From Magnetococcales bacterium (lineage in GTDB: Bacteria; Pseudomonadota; Magnetococcia; Magnetococcales; Magnetaquicoccaceae), in NCBI GenBank assembly GCA_015231755.1, contig JADGAZ010000001.1:62001-126000 (forward strand): a stretch of DNA of 64,000 nt. The letters are read 5' to 3'. This document shows positions 10,376 to 15,176 of this stretch, piece by piece; the stretch's first letter is position 1; each line of letters opens with the position of its first letter. Below the pieces are notes generated by a model. It was not told the origin of the DNA. It saw only the letters and a program-made list of their open reading frames with translations, and did not search any database. A program made the position numbers and the translations under genes.

Positions 10376-11722
10376 TTAAGGCTCCTTGACCCCGGTGACC
10401 TGGACCGTGAGGGTTCCGGAGGCCAGGGTCACCCGCAGGGTGGTTCCGGGTGGAAAAAGCGTAGCGTCACGCGCGATGGTACCGTGTTCATCTTGGACCA
10501 GGGCGTAACCCCGCGTCAATACGTGCAACGGGGAGATGGCGGTCAGACGTGCGTTCAGCAGTCGGAGGCGGTCCTGGTGATGTTTCAGCCCTTGGCGCGT
10601 CTGGGAGATGAGTCTGGTTTCCAGATGGTGGAGCCGGGTCCCCCGCAACATCAATGGTTTTCCATTCCCCCATCCCGCGAGTCGGGCCGCCAGATGCTCG
10701 GTGGTCTGCCGACGCCTTGCGATCAGACGGTGCAGGGCCAACAGCAGTCGCTGTTGCAGTTCGTCGCAGCGCAGGCGGGCCTGCTCGATGCGGCGGCGGG
10801 GATGCACCAGTCGGGCGCGCAGGGAAGCGAGGCGCTCTTGTCGGGTTTGAATTCGGGCTATGACCACGGCCAGCAGTCGGGTTTGCAGTCCGTTCAGACG
10901 GGTGGCGAGCATGGCCATTTCCGGCATGGCCATTTCAGCGGCGGCGGAGGGAGTCGAGGCCCGGGCGTCCGCCGCCAGATCCGCCAGGGTTACGTCAATT
11001 TCATGACCCACCGCCGAAATCACCGGAATGGGGCAGTGGGCGATGGCCCGCACCACGATTTCGGCGTTGAAGGCGGCCAGATCCTCTGCGGAGCCTCCCC
11101 CGCGACCACACAGGATCACCTCGGCCCGGTCATCTGCGGCCAGTCGTTGCAAAGCCTGCACGATCTCTTCCGGCGCCCCTTCCCCCTGGACGCGGGCATG
11201 GGCCAGGATCAGATGATAGGCGGGAAAACGGCGGTCCAGGGTGCGGGTGATGTCGTGAATGGCCGCCCCGGAAGCCGAGGTCACCACCCCCACCGCCCGG
11301 GGCAGAAACGGCAAGGGCCGCTTGCGACTCACCTCGAATACCCCTTCGGCGGTCAATTTGGCATGCAGGGCCAACAGCTTTTCCCGTTCCCCCCCCGCGC
11401 CATCGGGCCGCAACCCCTCGACCACCCATTGATATTCGCCCCGCGGGGTGTAGACGGAAATCCGCCCCGTGGTCACCACCGCATCCCCGGAGCGGGGCAG
11501 GGTGGGAATGCGCATTCGGGTGGTCTTCCAGATCACCGCCCGAATGCGGGATTGGGCATCCACCAAGGAGAAATAGACATGCCCCGACGGGGCGATCTTC
11601 CAATCCGCGATCTCTCCGCGCACCTGAAGATAGGGATATTCCTCCTCCAGCAGGTCACGGATCTCCTCGTTGAGTTGGGAGACGGTCAGGCAGGTGGCGA
11701 ATCCGGTCACGTTTTTTTCCAC
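10376..11722 (-). CDS. xseA: exodeoxyribonuclease VII large subunit
   Basis: 448 aa, normal length. N-terminal OB-fold DNA-binding domain (YTVSQLN-like LTVSQLNEEIRDLLEEEYP, then VRGEIADWK), catalytic domain with TSASGAAIHDITRTL, RGGGSAEDLAAFN and AVGHEIDVTLADLAAD, followed by a coiled-coil region that binds XseB. ExoVII acts processively on single-stranded DNA from both ends in repair. The start is GTG at 11722, six bases after the stop of the upstream TOPRIM gene, so it may be translated from the same message as that accessory pair. Confidence 0.96.
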   Translation of the reverse strand: MEKNVTGFATCLTVSQLNEEIRDLLEEEYPYLQVRGEIADWKIAPSGHVYFSLVDAQSRIRAVIWKTTRMRIPTLPRSGDAVVTTGRISVYTPRGEYQWVVEGLRPDGAGGEREKLLALHAKLTAEGVFEVSRKRPLPFLPRAVGVVTSASGAAIHDITRTLDRRFPAYHLILAHARVQGEGAPEEIVQALQRLAADDRAEVILCGRGGGSAEDLAAFNAEIVVRAIAHCPIPVISAVGHEIDVTLADLAADARASTPSAAAEMAMPEMAMLATRLNGLQTRLLAVVIARIQTRQERLASLRARLVHPRRRIEQARLRCDELQQRLLLALHRLIARRRQTTEHLAARLAGWGNGKPLMLRGTRLHHLETRLISQTRQGLKHHQDRLRLLNARLTAISPLHVLTRGYALVQDEHGTIARDATLFPPGTTLRVTLASGTLTVQVTGVKEP

Positions 11723-11728
11723 ACGGTT

Positions 11729-12388
11729 TCAGCTCTCATCGTCGAACAATTGGCGCAGCCATTTTGAAAAAGTCTGGGCCGTGGGGGTGTCGGGTTGCAA
11801 GGCGTGTTGGGTGATGGAACGGCCCAAGGGGGAACCCGGCTCCTTTTGCCAAGCCAGATAGGTGTGAATTTCGGCTTTGCGGCGATGAATGGGGTTGAAG
11901 CGTGCGATTTCTTGCGTTTCTGCCAGAGTCACGCACGCTTGCGCCAGTTGGATCGCGTCGTGAGGTGCCATTTCCAGCAAAAAATCTTCGAGTCGGCCGG
12001 GGTCTGCGTTGTTGGGCATGATCCAGATGCCCAGCCTGGGCAGCTCCGCAGTGGTGAGGATGGTGCCATCGGGGCCCGGTTTTTCCGGTATGGTATACGC
12101 TCCAAGATCCATGAGTTTCTGGATCTCTTGCCAGCGAAAATCCGCCGCTGCCTCGTCGGCATCCAGCACCAGACCGATTTTGTGTTTTGATTTATGAATC
12201 GGACTCTCCGTAGGAGCCCGAAGCAGACCATCCGCATACTCCAGAACTTGTGTGTCGCTGCCGCATTCATGGATGCCGAACGTTTGGGGAATTTTGAAAT
12301 GAGCGCACAAGGCCATGATTACATGACAATCATTGGTCCCTTCGACAAGCAGCACCTGGGCGCCTTTGTGTGTGCAGGGATCCCCCAT
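11729..12388 (-). CDS. TOPRIM-domain protein (DUF3226/DUF4435-like), partner of the upstream AAA ATPase
   Basis: 219 aa from ATG 12388, which overlaps the upstream ATPase stop by one base (TGATG), so the two are translationally coupled. The TOPRIM signature is complete: the conserved glutamate in LLVEGTND (E16) and the DxD pair in LVLDADE (D76, D78), residues that bind Mg2+ in OLD nucleases, primases and topoisomerases. The fold and size suit the DUF3226 family, related to the TOPRIM partner of PARIS (DUF4435). G+C looks intermediate between the AT-rich ATPase and its host. Probable role, by inference: nuclease effector of an ATPase-gated defence module. It reads into xseA after six bases. 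Confidence 0.75.
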   Translation of the reverse strand: MGDPCTHKGAQVLLVEGTNDCHVIMALCAHFKIPQTFGIHECGSDTQVLEYADGLLRAPTESPIHKSKHKIGLVLDADEAAADFRWQEIQKLMDLGAYTIPEKPGPDGTILTTAELPRLGIWIMPNNADPGRLEDFLLEMAPHDAIQLAQACVTLAETQEIARFNPIHRRKAEIHTYLAWQKEPGSPLGRSITQHALQPDTPTAQTFSKWLRQLFDDES

Positions 12389-13470
12389 CAACGCATCTCC
12401 ACCTGGGATTTCAAGGCGTTGCCGAGGGTCTTCAAAGAATAGGGCATGACCTTGGCCCCTTCTTCCGGATCGGCATCCAGGCGAAAGAAGGCGCCTTCCT
12501 CGGGATTTTCCAGCCAAGCCTCATGAAATCCCGCGATGCAGTCTTTGCTGTGGGTGGTGGCGAAGACCTGGATGTTCAATTGCTGGGATAGATGGAAGAT
12601 GATTTTCCATAATTTGGGGTGGACAGACCAGTGGAGACCGTTTTCGGCTTCGTCGATCAACAGAACACCCTCTTTTGCATTGACCATGGCCAGAATGATA
12701 TGCAGGATTCTGACTGCGCCATCACCGAGGCTTTTCAGGGGGATTCTGTCATAGGAATGACCAATCCGGACGGCAGGTATTCTTCTGTCTTCCAGGTCTG
12801 TTGTAACAGAAAAAGTCAGGCCTGTTATTTGATCGTTGATAAAATTGAGAGCTTGAATGACGTGTTCTTCAAGTGGGGTCAGGGTGATTTCATCCCACAG
12901 GCGAGCGGTGATATTCTTGTCAAGAAAGCCGTATGAATCCAAATGATGCAATTTTTGACTGTAACCGTAACCGTCTCTTGCATAAATGGGTTGCCCTTTA
13001 TTCTTCGATTGGTTGATCGGGGATATGGGATTGAATTTTCCTTCACGACTGGACATGAGAAAGATATAATCTTCATTGTCTGATGTGATGAAGATCTGAT
13101 TGTTTTTTTCGATTGTTTTTCTTGTGCAGATTTGGAGCAGGTTTGTTTGATCTGCCTTTCCAATTTGAATGCCATCTTCAGACGTGGGGGGAAAGGCGCG
13201 TCCTCTGAAAAGGTGTCTGAACGGGTTGTTCTTCAGGCCGTTTTCCAGATCCAGGTAATCTGCCTGATTGGGGTATTTGTCTTCATTTCTTGAGGCGATC
13301 AAGTCGGCCAACAACCGCTGATGGCCGTTTCCAAAGTAGATGTTCAACGCCTCCAGCAGACAACTCTTTCCGCTGCCATTTTTTCCGGAGAACAGATTGA
13401 CCATCCCCAATCGTTTGATTTTGAGTTCACGAAACAGCCTGAAATTGGCAATATAGAGCGAGTCCAACAT
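12388..13470 (-). CDS. AAA_21/AAA_15-type ABC-like ATPase (OLD-family N-terminal-like)
   Basis: 360 aa. N-terminal ILxxYIANFRxF-type strand then Walker A GKNGSGKS (residues 29-36), signature-like LKSLGDGAVRIL in the second half, Walker B GVLLIDEAENGLHW (about 268-281) and His-switch FATTHSKDC (H307). This is the SMC/OLD-like ATPase fold found alone or with TOPRIM or HNH partners in defence systems. The gene is unusually AT-rich: 13081-13140 has 21 G or C of 60 bases, while neighbouring genes are clearly GC-rich. That suggests recent transfer. It starts 14 bases after the acetolactate synthase stop, with GAGG as ribosome binding site, and couples to the TOPRIM gene. Confidence 0.85.
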   Translation of the reverse strand: MLDSLYIANFRLFRELKIKRLGMVNLFSGKNGSGKSCLLEALNIYFGNGHQRLLADLIASRNEDKYPNQADYLDLENGLKNNPFRHLFRGRAFPPTSEDGIQIGKADQTNLLQICTRKTIEKNNQIFITSDNEDYIFLMSSREGKFNPISPINQSKNKGQPIYARDGYGYSQKLHHLDSYGFLDKNITARLWDEITLTPLEEHVIQALNFINDQITGLTFSVTTDLEDRRIPAVRIGHSYDRIPLKSLGDGAVRILHIILAMVNAKEGVLLIDEAENGLHWSVHPKLWKIIFHLSQQLNIQVFATTHSKDCIAGFHEAWLENPEEGAFFRLDADPEEGAKVMPYSLKTLGNALKSQVEMR

Positions 13471-13484
13471 TTTTTTTCCTCACT

Positions 13485-15176
13485 TCAAACGCGTTGCGGC
13501 ATCAGGCAGCTTTTGGCCTGCAACTCTTCGGTCAGCACGCGGATGTTTTCCGTGTAGTCCACCGGCACATCGATCAAGTGGACCCCACCCGACGCCAGAC
13601 AGGTTTGCAGCAGGGGAAAGAGTTCGTCGGCGGTCATGACCCGGTGGCCGTGGGCGCCGTAGCTTTGGGCGTAGAGCACGAAGTCGGGATTGGAGAAATT
13701 CAGGCCGTAATCCGGCAGTCCCATGCTTTCTTGTTTCCAGCGGATCATGCCGTAGGCGTCGTCCCGCAGGATCAGGATCACCAGATCCTGTTTCAGGCGG
13801 ACGGCGGTTTCCATTTCCTGGGAGTTCATCATGAAGCCGCCGTCGCCGCACACCGCCACCACCTTGCGTTCCGGGTGGACCATCTTGGCCGCGATGGCCG
13901 AGGGCAGACCCGTGCCCATGCTGGCCAGGGCGTTGTCGAGCAGCACCGTGTTTTGCTGATGGGCCGGATAGTTGCGAGCGATCCAGAGTTTGTACATGCC
14001 GTTGTCCAGCGCCAGAATGCCGTCACTGGGCATGGCGCGGCGCAGATCTCGCACCACCCGTTGGGGCAGGAGGGGGTAGTTGTTCGCATCGCCCCGGTCC
14101 AAGACGTGTTGGGCGTGATCCGCGCCCACTTGATGAAAATAGGAAAAATCCCACTCCGGGGAGGGAATCAACAAGCGGGTCAACGCCTCGATGCCCCGGG
14201 AAATGTCGCCCACCACCTCCAGTCCCGGGAAATAGACATCATCGATCTGGGCGGCGGTGAAGTTGATGTGGATCACATCCGCCGAGCCGTCGTGTCCCAT
14301 GATGGCCGGGGGTTTTTCGGTGACATCGTGGCCCACGGCGATGATCAGGTCGGCCCAGTCGATGGCGCAGTGGAGATAATCCCCGTCGGTGAGGGCGGCG
14401 GTGCCCAGATAGCCGGGACGGCTTTCGTCCACCACACCCTTGCCCATCTGGGTGGAGACGAAGGGAATGCCGGTCTTGTCCACAAAGGCGGTGAGGCTGG
14501 CGGAGACCTGTTTGCGATTGGCGCCGGCGGCGATCAGCAACAAGGGACGTTTGGCCATGGCGATGCGTTCGGCGGCGGCGATGATCGCTTCGGGATCCGG
14601 GGCGGCGCGCCGTGAGGTGACCTTGCGCAAGGGGGTGGCTTCGGTGTATTCCCTGGCGATGTCTTCGGGCAGTTCCAGATGGGTGGCGCCGGGTCGTTCC
14701 TCTTCGGCCCGCTTGAAGGCCTCCCGCACCAACGAGGGAATCTTGTCCGCCGAGGGGATCTGTTCGGCCAATTTGGTGATGGGGCGCATGGTGCCCACCA
14801 CGTCGATGATCTGAAAGCGGCCCTGTTTGCTTTTTTTGATGGGTTTTTGTCCGGTGATGGCCACCAGTGGCATGCCGCCGAGCTGGGCATAGGCCACGCC
14901 GGTGATCAGATTGGTGGCTCCCGGCCCCAGGGTGGAGAGTACCACCCCTGCCTTGCCGGTCAAACGTCCGAAGGTGGCCGCCATGAAGGCCGCCGCCTGT
15001 TCGTGACGGGTGAGTACCAGTTCGATGGACGAGGCGCGCAACGATTCCAAAAGATCCAGGTTCTCTTCTCCCGGCACACCAAAGATGCGTTCCACACCTT
15101 CGGCCTCCAGACACTGGACAAACAGATCGGCGGCCTTGATGGACTCTTTTTTGGAGGATTGGTCGGGTTGGGACAT
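13485..15176 (-). CDS. acetolactate synthase, catabolic AlsS/IlvB-like large subunit
   Basis: 563 aa ThDP enzyme with the three-domain pyruvate decarboxylase fold. The catalytic glutamate lies in the segment RHEQAAAFMAATFGRLTGK near residue 60, STLGPGATNLITG follows, and the ThDP/Mg motif GDGGFMMNSQEMETAVR is in the C-terminal third, followed by DDAYGMIRWKQ. It should condense two pyruvates into 2-acetolactate. No small regulatory subunit (ilvN) lies next to it and the sequence looks closest to the AlsS-type, so either an acetoin-type or a biosynthetic role is possible. It heads the minus-strand run and diverges from ubiX. Confidence 0.85.
   Translation of the reverse strand: MSQPDQSSKKESIKAADLFVQCLEAEGVERIFGVPGEENLDLLESLRASSIELVLTRHEQAAAFMAATFGRLTGKAGVVLSTLGPGATNLITGVAYAQLGGMPLVAITGQKPIKKSKQGRFQIIDVVGTMRPITKLAEQIPSADKIPSLVREAFKRAEEERPGATHLELPEDIAREYTEATPLRKVTSRRAAPDPEAIIAAAERIAMAKRPLLLIAAGANRKQVSASLTAFVDKTGIPFVSTQMGKGVVDESRPGYLGTAALTDGDYLHCAIDWADLIIAVGHDVTEKPPAIMGHDGSADVIHINFTAAQIDDVYFPGLEVVGDISRGIEALTRLLIPSPEWDFSYFHQVGADHAQHVLDRGDANNYPLLPQRVVRDLRRAMPSDGILALDNGMYKLWIARNYPAHQQNTVLLDNALASMGTGLPSAIAAKMVHPERKVVAVCGDGGFMMNSQEMETAVRLKQDLVILILRDDAYGMIRWKQESMGLPDYGLNFSNPDFVLYAQSYGAHGHRVMTADELFPLLQTCLASGGVHLIDVPVDYTENIRVLTEELQAKSCLMPQRV

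Follow-up and report, generated by a model that had tools for sequence, protein, structure and literature searches.

Two overlapping genes in the analysed stretch of Magnetococcales DNA (64,000 nucleotides; hereafter the window) form a pair that belongs to the catalogued phage defence candidate PDC-M38 and is not new in kind. We consider it likely that this pair is a split OLD-family module, working as a toxin-antitoxin-like abortive-infection system. What is noteworthy about it is an operon-embedded life-style, together with a variable middle region in its ATPase.

An ATPase and a TOPRIM-fold protein of the PDC-M38 type

The first gene of the pair (12388 to 13470; this and all other window features given here lie on the minus strand) encodes a 360-aa ATPase of the OLD/SMC/RecF type (AAA_15). 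The second (11729 to 12388) encodes a 219-aa TOPRIM-fold protein of the DUF3226 family (PF11536), the proposed nuclease effector. A preliminary description, made from the sequence alone, had placed both open reading frames at these positions, and we found them there, intact and with all catalytic motifs kept. The ATPase stop codon overlaps the start of the TOPRIM gene in TGATG, the A being common to both. Reading the neighbouring genes from their sequence, we named the upstream flank an acetolactate-synthase-like (ALS-like) TPP enzyme (13485 to 15176) and the downstream flank xseA, the exonuclease VII large subunit (10376 to 11722). The minus-strand order is ALS-like gene, ATPase, TOPRIM gene, xseA, M23 peptidase, xseB (the last two also named from sequence) and more genes.

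Performing a PADLOC search, we matched the ATPase to PDC-M38A (PDLC04611, E = 2.2e-89) over residues 1-360 of 360 and the TOPRIM protein to PDC-M38B (PDLC04624, E = 3.2e-54). The ATPase had lesser matches to AbiLi (1.5e-54, whole length), AriA (2.6e-22) and, weakly, GajA; no other PADLOC family matched the TOPRIM protein. Pfam assigned AAA_15 (4.9e-23) to the former and DUF3226 (5.3e-63) to the latter, and in NCBIfam neither protein had a named match above the cut-off. M38A and M38B were both matched at full length in an identical two-gene order, and no defining feature sets the pair apart from PDC-M38. PDC-M38 is itself still a candidate, and most prevalent PDCs still await validation (PMC12988326).

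The ATPase motifs claimed earlier were all found: the Walker A GKNGSGKS (residues 29-36, 13363 to 13386), the ABC-type signature SLGDG (residues 247-251, 12718 to 12732), LLIDEAENG, which holds the Walker B LLIDE (residues 270-274, 12649 to 12663), and TTH, with the H-loop/switch histidine H307 (12550 to 12552). In 87 relatives, conservation was 97-100% at R360 and at the residues of the Walker A, signature, Walker B and H-loop motifs (G29, N31, G34, K35, G251, E274, H307 and R360 100%; D273 99%; G249 98%). Across about 87 aligned relatives, G34/K35, G251, D273/E274 and H307 are essentially invariant. Comparing the AlphaFold model of the ATPase with the PDB, we obtained Septu PtuA, retron PtuA, Rad50 and SMC heads as the best matches (top E about 1e-12). 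The protein ends in an E-x-R motif (residues 358-360, 12391 to 12399; E358 91%), which is seen in nearly all relatives, its final arginine in all of them, directly before the TOPRIM start. Perhaps this end contacts the TOPRIM protein and is the counterpart of the linker that joins the domains of fused OLD proteins.

For the TOPRIM protein, AlphaFold (pLDDT 86, pTM 0.85) predicts an OLD-like TOPRIM fold. Its five best Foldseek matches were all solved OLD TOPRIM domains from Burkholderia and Xanthomonas (6NK8/6NJV), with probabilities of 0.96-0.99 and modest E values of 0.007-0.015. The TOPRIM/OLD fold proposed earlier thus holds in structure prediction and, together with the PDC-M38 match, bears out the suggested pairing of an OLD-type ATPase with a TOPRIM protein. 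The metal-A, metal-B and lysine residues of OLD are E400/E404/D455/D457/E508/K562 (PMC7049728). The motif order here, E-x3-D ... D-x-D ... E ... K, parallels these residues, the mapping (that of E134 and K171 included) being by motif order and spacing, not by superposition. The candidate catalytic E16 (12341 to 12343; 99% conserved) and D20 (12329-12331; 98%) give the E-x3-E/D pattern of OLD E400/E404, followed by D76-x-D78 (12155 to 12163; 100%), E134 as a candidate second-metal ligand (11987 to 11989; 100%) and K171 as a candidate equivalent of OLD K562 (11876 to 11878; 100%). All of these residues lie at 97-100% conservation in about 87 aligned relatives, among them the glutamate and D-x-D metal ligands E16, D76 and D78 (99-100%), which the preliminary description had singled out.

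The partner had also been described as DUF3226/DUF4435. The first name stands, but the second does not, as neither Pfam nor PADLOC gave a match to DUF4435 or AriB at E <= 1, and we rejected that identity. Kinship to DUF4435 appeared in profile-profile comparison only (E 4e-4, probability 35%). Searching the PDB by sequence, we found no match with the single TOPRIM protein as query; a 50-row TOPRIM profile returned AriB alone at E 0.19, plus two chance-level matches. Comparison of the TOPRIM profile with four OLD C-terminal halves gave a weak result (0.025).

Among known systems, PARIS (AriA/AriB; class 4 OLD) likewise keeps its ATPase and TOPRIM protein on separate genes, and its AriA model matches our ATPase; its effector, however, is AriB/DUF4435, whereas here it is the 219-aa DUF3226 protein. 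We rejected PARIS on the lack of an AriB/DUF4435 effector; on the ATPase, the PDC-M38A and AbiLi models match far more strongly than AriA. AbiL of Lactococcus (AbiLi/AbiLii) is a two-gene AAA and TOPRIM-like Abi system (PMC10440598). The AbiLi model matches the ATPase over the whole length, but the AbiL partner is the RloB-type AbiLii, and ours matches only PDC-M38B in PADLOC and DUF3226 in Pfam, so AbiL was set aside as well. Gabija (GajA/GajB) and class 1 OLD also combine an ABC ATPase with TOPRIM, and solved OLD domains are nearest to our TOPRIM fold. In contrast to them, the domains here lie on separate genes; with neither a GajA fusion nor a GajB helicase, and with the ALS-like gene and xseA as neighbours, Gabija was rejected. 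The solved structures nearest to the ATPase model are those of Septu and retron PtuA, but PtuA is partnered by the HNH nuclease PtuB and our ATPase by a TOPRIM protein. In its mode of action, the pair probably resembles class 4 (split) OLD systems.

Insertion site polymorphism and the ATPase middle

Nothing lies between the ALS-like gene and xseA in the congener G009, where they are 5 bp apart. The pair occupies the same site in G006 (94-99% identical) and G010 (57%), and the GC content, 60-66% in the flanking DNA, drops to 41-57% within the pair. The pair is an insertion between the ALS-like gene and xseA, in agreement with the earlier proposal of an insertion into a housekeeping operon, a habit that recurs in the family; the empty state in G009 fits loss or original absence. 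A third congener, G003 (L024, G003:C65, 2654-3691), carries at this site an ATPase intact to its EMR end and no TOPRIM gene, the xseA start lying 2 bp past the ATPase stop. This orphan ATPase fits an antitoxin that has outlived its toxin. A clade test on the four same-site ATPases did not reject a single origin (p 0.69), and separate insertions at one site are therefore unneeded.

A same-site relative without its TOPRIM gene is also what one might see if the inserted pair were a non-functional relic, drifting after insertion. We regard this as very improbable, since both open reading frames of the window are intact with all motifs, and dN/dS against the sister genome is 0.17 for the ATPase and 0.29 for the TOPRIM gene, near the 0.18 of xseA (values based on few substitutions).

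Comparing the proteins of this locus and G010, we found the ATPase only 31% identical over residues 56-235 (12766 to 13305) and 86% identical over residues 236-360. Copies in other phyla reach 26-29% in this middle region, so the value for G010 is hardly better. At the DNA level, the two loci are about 82-94% identical in the flanks and 78-83% in the C-terminal core of the ATPase, compared with 47-54% in its middle, which also shows the lowest GC (the 41% trough) and the lowest GC3 of the locus. These sequence comparisons suggest that the hypervariable middle is likely a sensor or partner-recognition region under diversifying selection or exchange.

Related pairs in operons, plasmids and defence loci

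Scanning genomes for relatives of the TOPRIM protein, we found at least 527 and kept 80 for neighbour analysis. The same ATPase lies directly upstream of the TOPRIM gene in 78 of the 80, mostly with an overlap of 1-4 nt, so the pairing is not due to chance. The relatives are spread over Cyanobacteria, Bacteroidota, Pseudomonadota, Planctomycetota, Chloroflexota and other phyla, and the tree shows coherent clades as well as strays.

Next to the 78 pairs we found mainly housekeeping genes, and time and again a pair is embedded in, or follows, a housekeeping operon of unrelated function (his, trp, fhc, purH, aspS, leuS). Methylococcaceae pairs have an fhcA-like amidohydrolase gene and ftr flanking either side; a Latescibacterium pair is flanked by a class-I glutamine amidotransferase gene and a Glycos_transf_3 (trpD-type) gene. 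Other neighbours are purH, two GH57 genes, argJ, aspS, leuS, lepA, secA, a ribosomal S1-domain gene, dapB, proC, RelA/SpoT, an RNB ribonuclease gene and truA. In G026 (L035, G026:C199, 7213-10581), two tandem pairs split hisF from hisI within the histidine operon, at a junction that is empty (11-108 bp) in each of the 29 further copies we examined from Magnetococcales. PADLOC matches (1e-15) were few among the nearest neighbours, the top families reaching 2-3 of 104; the background from distant genes on the same contigs was PDC-M03B only, 1 of 100, below the nearest-neighbour level. A same-strand neighbour lies at most 150 bp upstream of 30 of 56 non-redundant pairs versus 4 of 17 hand-counted DUF4435 loci. 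With this borderline difference (p = 0.05), we gave up the claim of a strong operon enrichment over other split systems and keep it as a pattern, not a proven difference. A simple consensus scan, which is weak evidence, found no promoter-like minus-strand site ahead of the ATPase in the window. The pair has no obvious promoter of its own and would probably be co-transcribed from the host housekeeping operon.

Such surroundings could also point to a cellular nucleic-acid maintenance enzyme that processes RNA or repairs DNA and is tied to growth via the housekeeping operons. The neighbours include aminoacyl-tRNA synthetases, the RNB-domain ribonuclease, lepA, the S1-domain ribosomal protein and RelA/SpoT, and the copies from cyanobacteria and from Methylococcaceae group into coherent clades that look vertically inherited. 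There is also a non-defence OLD protein on record, as the archaeal OLD ATPase Cran1 has a cell-cycle function and no antiviral effect (PMC12796447). The abortive-infection reading is weakened by the same facts, namely the mostly housekeeping neighbours with few defence matches, the clades of vertical appearance and the work of Cran1 in the cell cycle. Nevertheless, we find a maintenance role quite improbable. DUF3226 exceeds the cut-off in just 4 of 11 genomes within the genus and, phylum-wide, in 8 of 398, the host operons vary between lineages, the TOPRIM gene is missing in G003 and the whole pair from the G009 site, and pairs are carried by plasmids. A conserved housekeeping pair is ruled out by the empty site in the congener and the patchy DUF3226.

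Related pairs reside on 4-40 kb plasmids in Acinetobacter, Citrobacter and Klebsiella; some plasmid-borne pairs adjoin BrnT/BrnA or RelE-type pairs, and on a Plesiomonas plasmid the pair adjoins phage tail genes. On ColE-type plasmids of Citrobacter (6.4 kb; L039 4096-5942) and Klebsiella (4.1 kb; L040 2791-3897), the pair is nearly the sole cargo. We found no relatives of the TOPRIM protein in the viral contigs and phage records searched, and no DNA matches to three plasmid-borne relatives in E. coli genomes. Within the genus, G009 holds, at another locus, a pair of another branch with PDC-S06 (E 0) on one side and hmaB (3e-290), the gene of the Hma methylase, on the other (L029, G009:C262, 4140-11212), a stretch that makes up a defence island. 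The congener G004 (L030, G004:C155, 5745-7861) has another PDC-M38 subtype, with an M38B of 282 aa that the DUF3226 model barely detects.

A plain toxin-antitoxin or addiction module, keeping itself or its plasmid and giving no phage protection, seems to us an unlikely reading of the pair. It would account for a pair among very few cargo genes on 4-14 kb plasmids, for the adjoining BrnT/BrnA and RelE-type pairs on others, and for the G003 ATPase without a TOPRIM gene, as expected of an antitoxin after toxin loss. However, divergence mainly confined to the ATPase middle better fits an external antagonist, and a related pair lies inside the Hma defence locus of the same genus.

Proposed mechanism and significance

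In split AAA/TOPRIM_OLD pairs, the two proteins are antitoxin and toxin, and the AAA protein neutralises (PMC10440598). In PARIS, sensing falls to the ATPase, and AriB is a TOPRIM nuclease that cuts tRNA (PMC12409363). Our pair may work analogously, its ATPase restraining and triggering the TOPRIM effector. Besides these precedents, the abortive-infection reading draws on the PDC-M38 matches, the OLD-like and PtuA-like models, the invariant catalytic residues, the near-obligate pairing, the insertion polymorphism and patchy presence, the plasmid and defence-locus settings, and the divergent ATPase middle. Acting as an abortive-infection system, the ATPase would bind ATP, oligomerise and restrain the TOPRIM protein, and its fast-changing middle would sense an infection signal. 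The TOPRIM protein would then be released or activated and cut nucleic acid by a two-metal site comprising E16, D76 and D78, probably also D20, E134 and K171. The substrate could be tRNA, as for AriB, or DNA, as for OLD and Gabija. We found no experiments on any DUF3226 pair in the literature searched, nor, in the papers searched, a description of PDC-M38 residing in housekeeping operons.

A wider idea, which we hold as speculative and rather unlikely, is that DUF3226 modules are an operon-embedded form of defence. They would insert again and again between genes of unrelated housekeeping operons, relying on the transcription of these operons. The trigger would then be the shut-off of the host by a phage, since falling operon expression would deplete the ATPase and free the TOPRIM toxin, and the variable ATPase middle would tune which phage products are sensed.

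Defence genes are usually sought in defence islands. DUF3226 pairs would escape that search, because many copies sit singly in his, trp, fhc, purH, aspS and xseA clusters. The polymorphic sites within one order, which are empty or hold an ATPase only, a full pair or a tandem pair, offer ready comparison material. The same-site ATPases, with similar cores and strongly divergent middles, may help to locate the sensor and to test recognition by split OLD ATPases.
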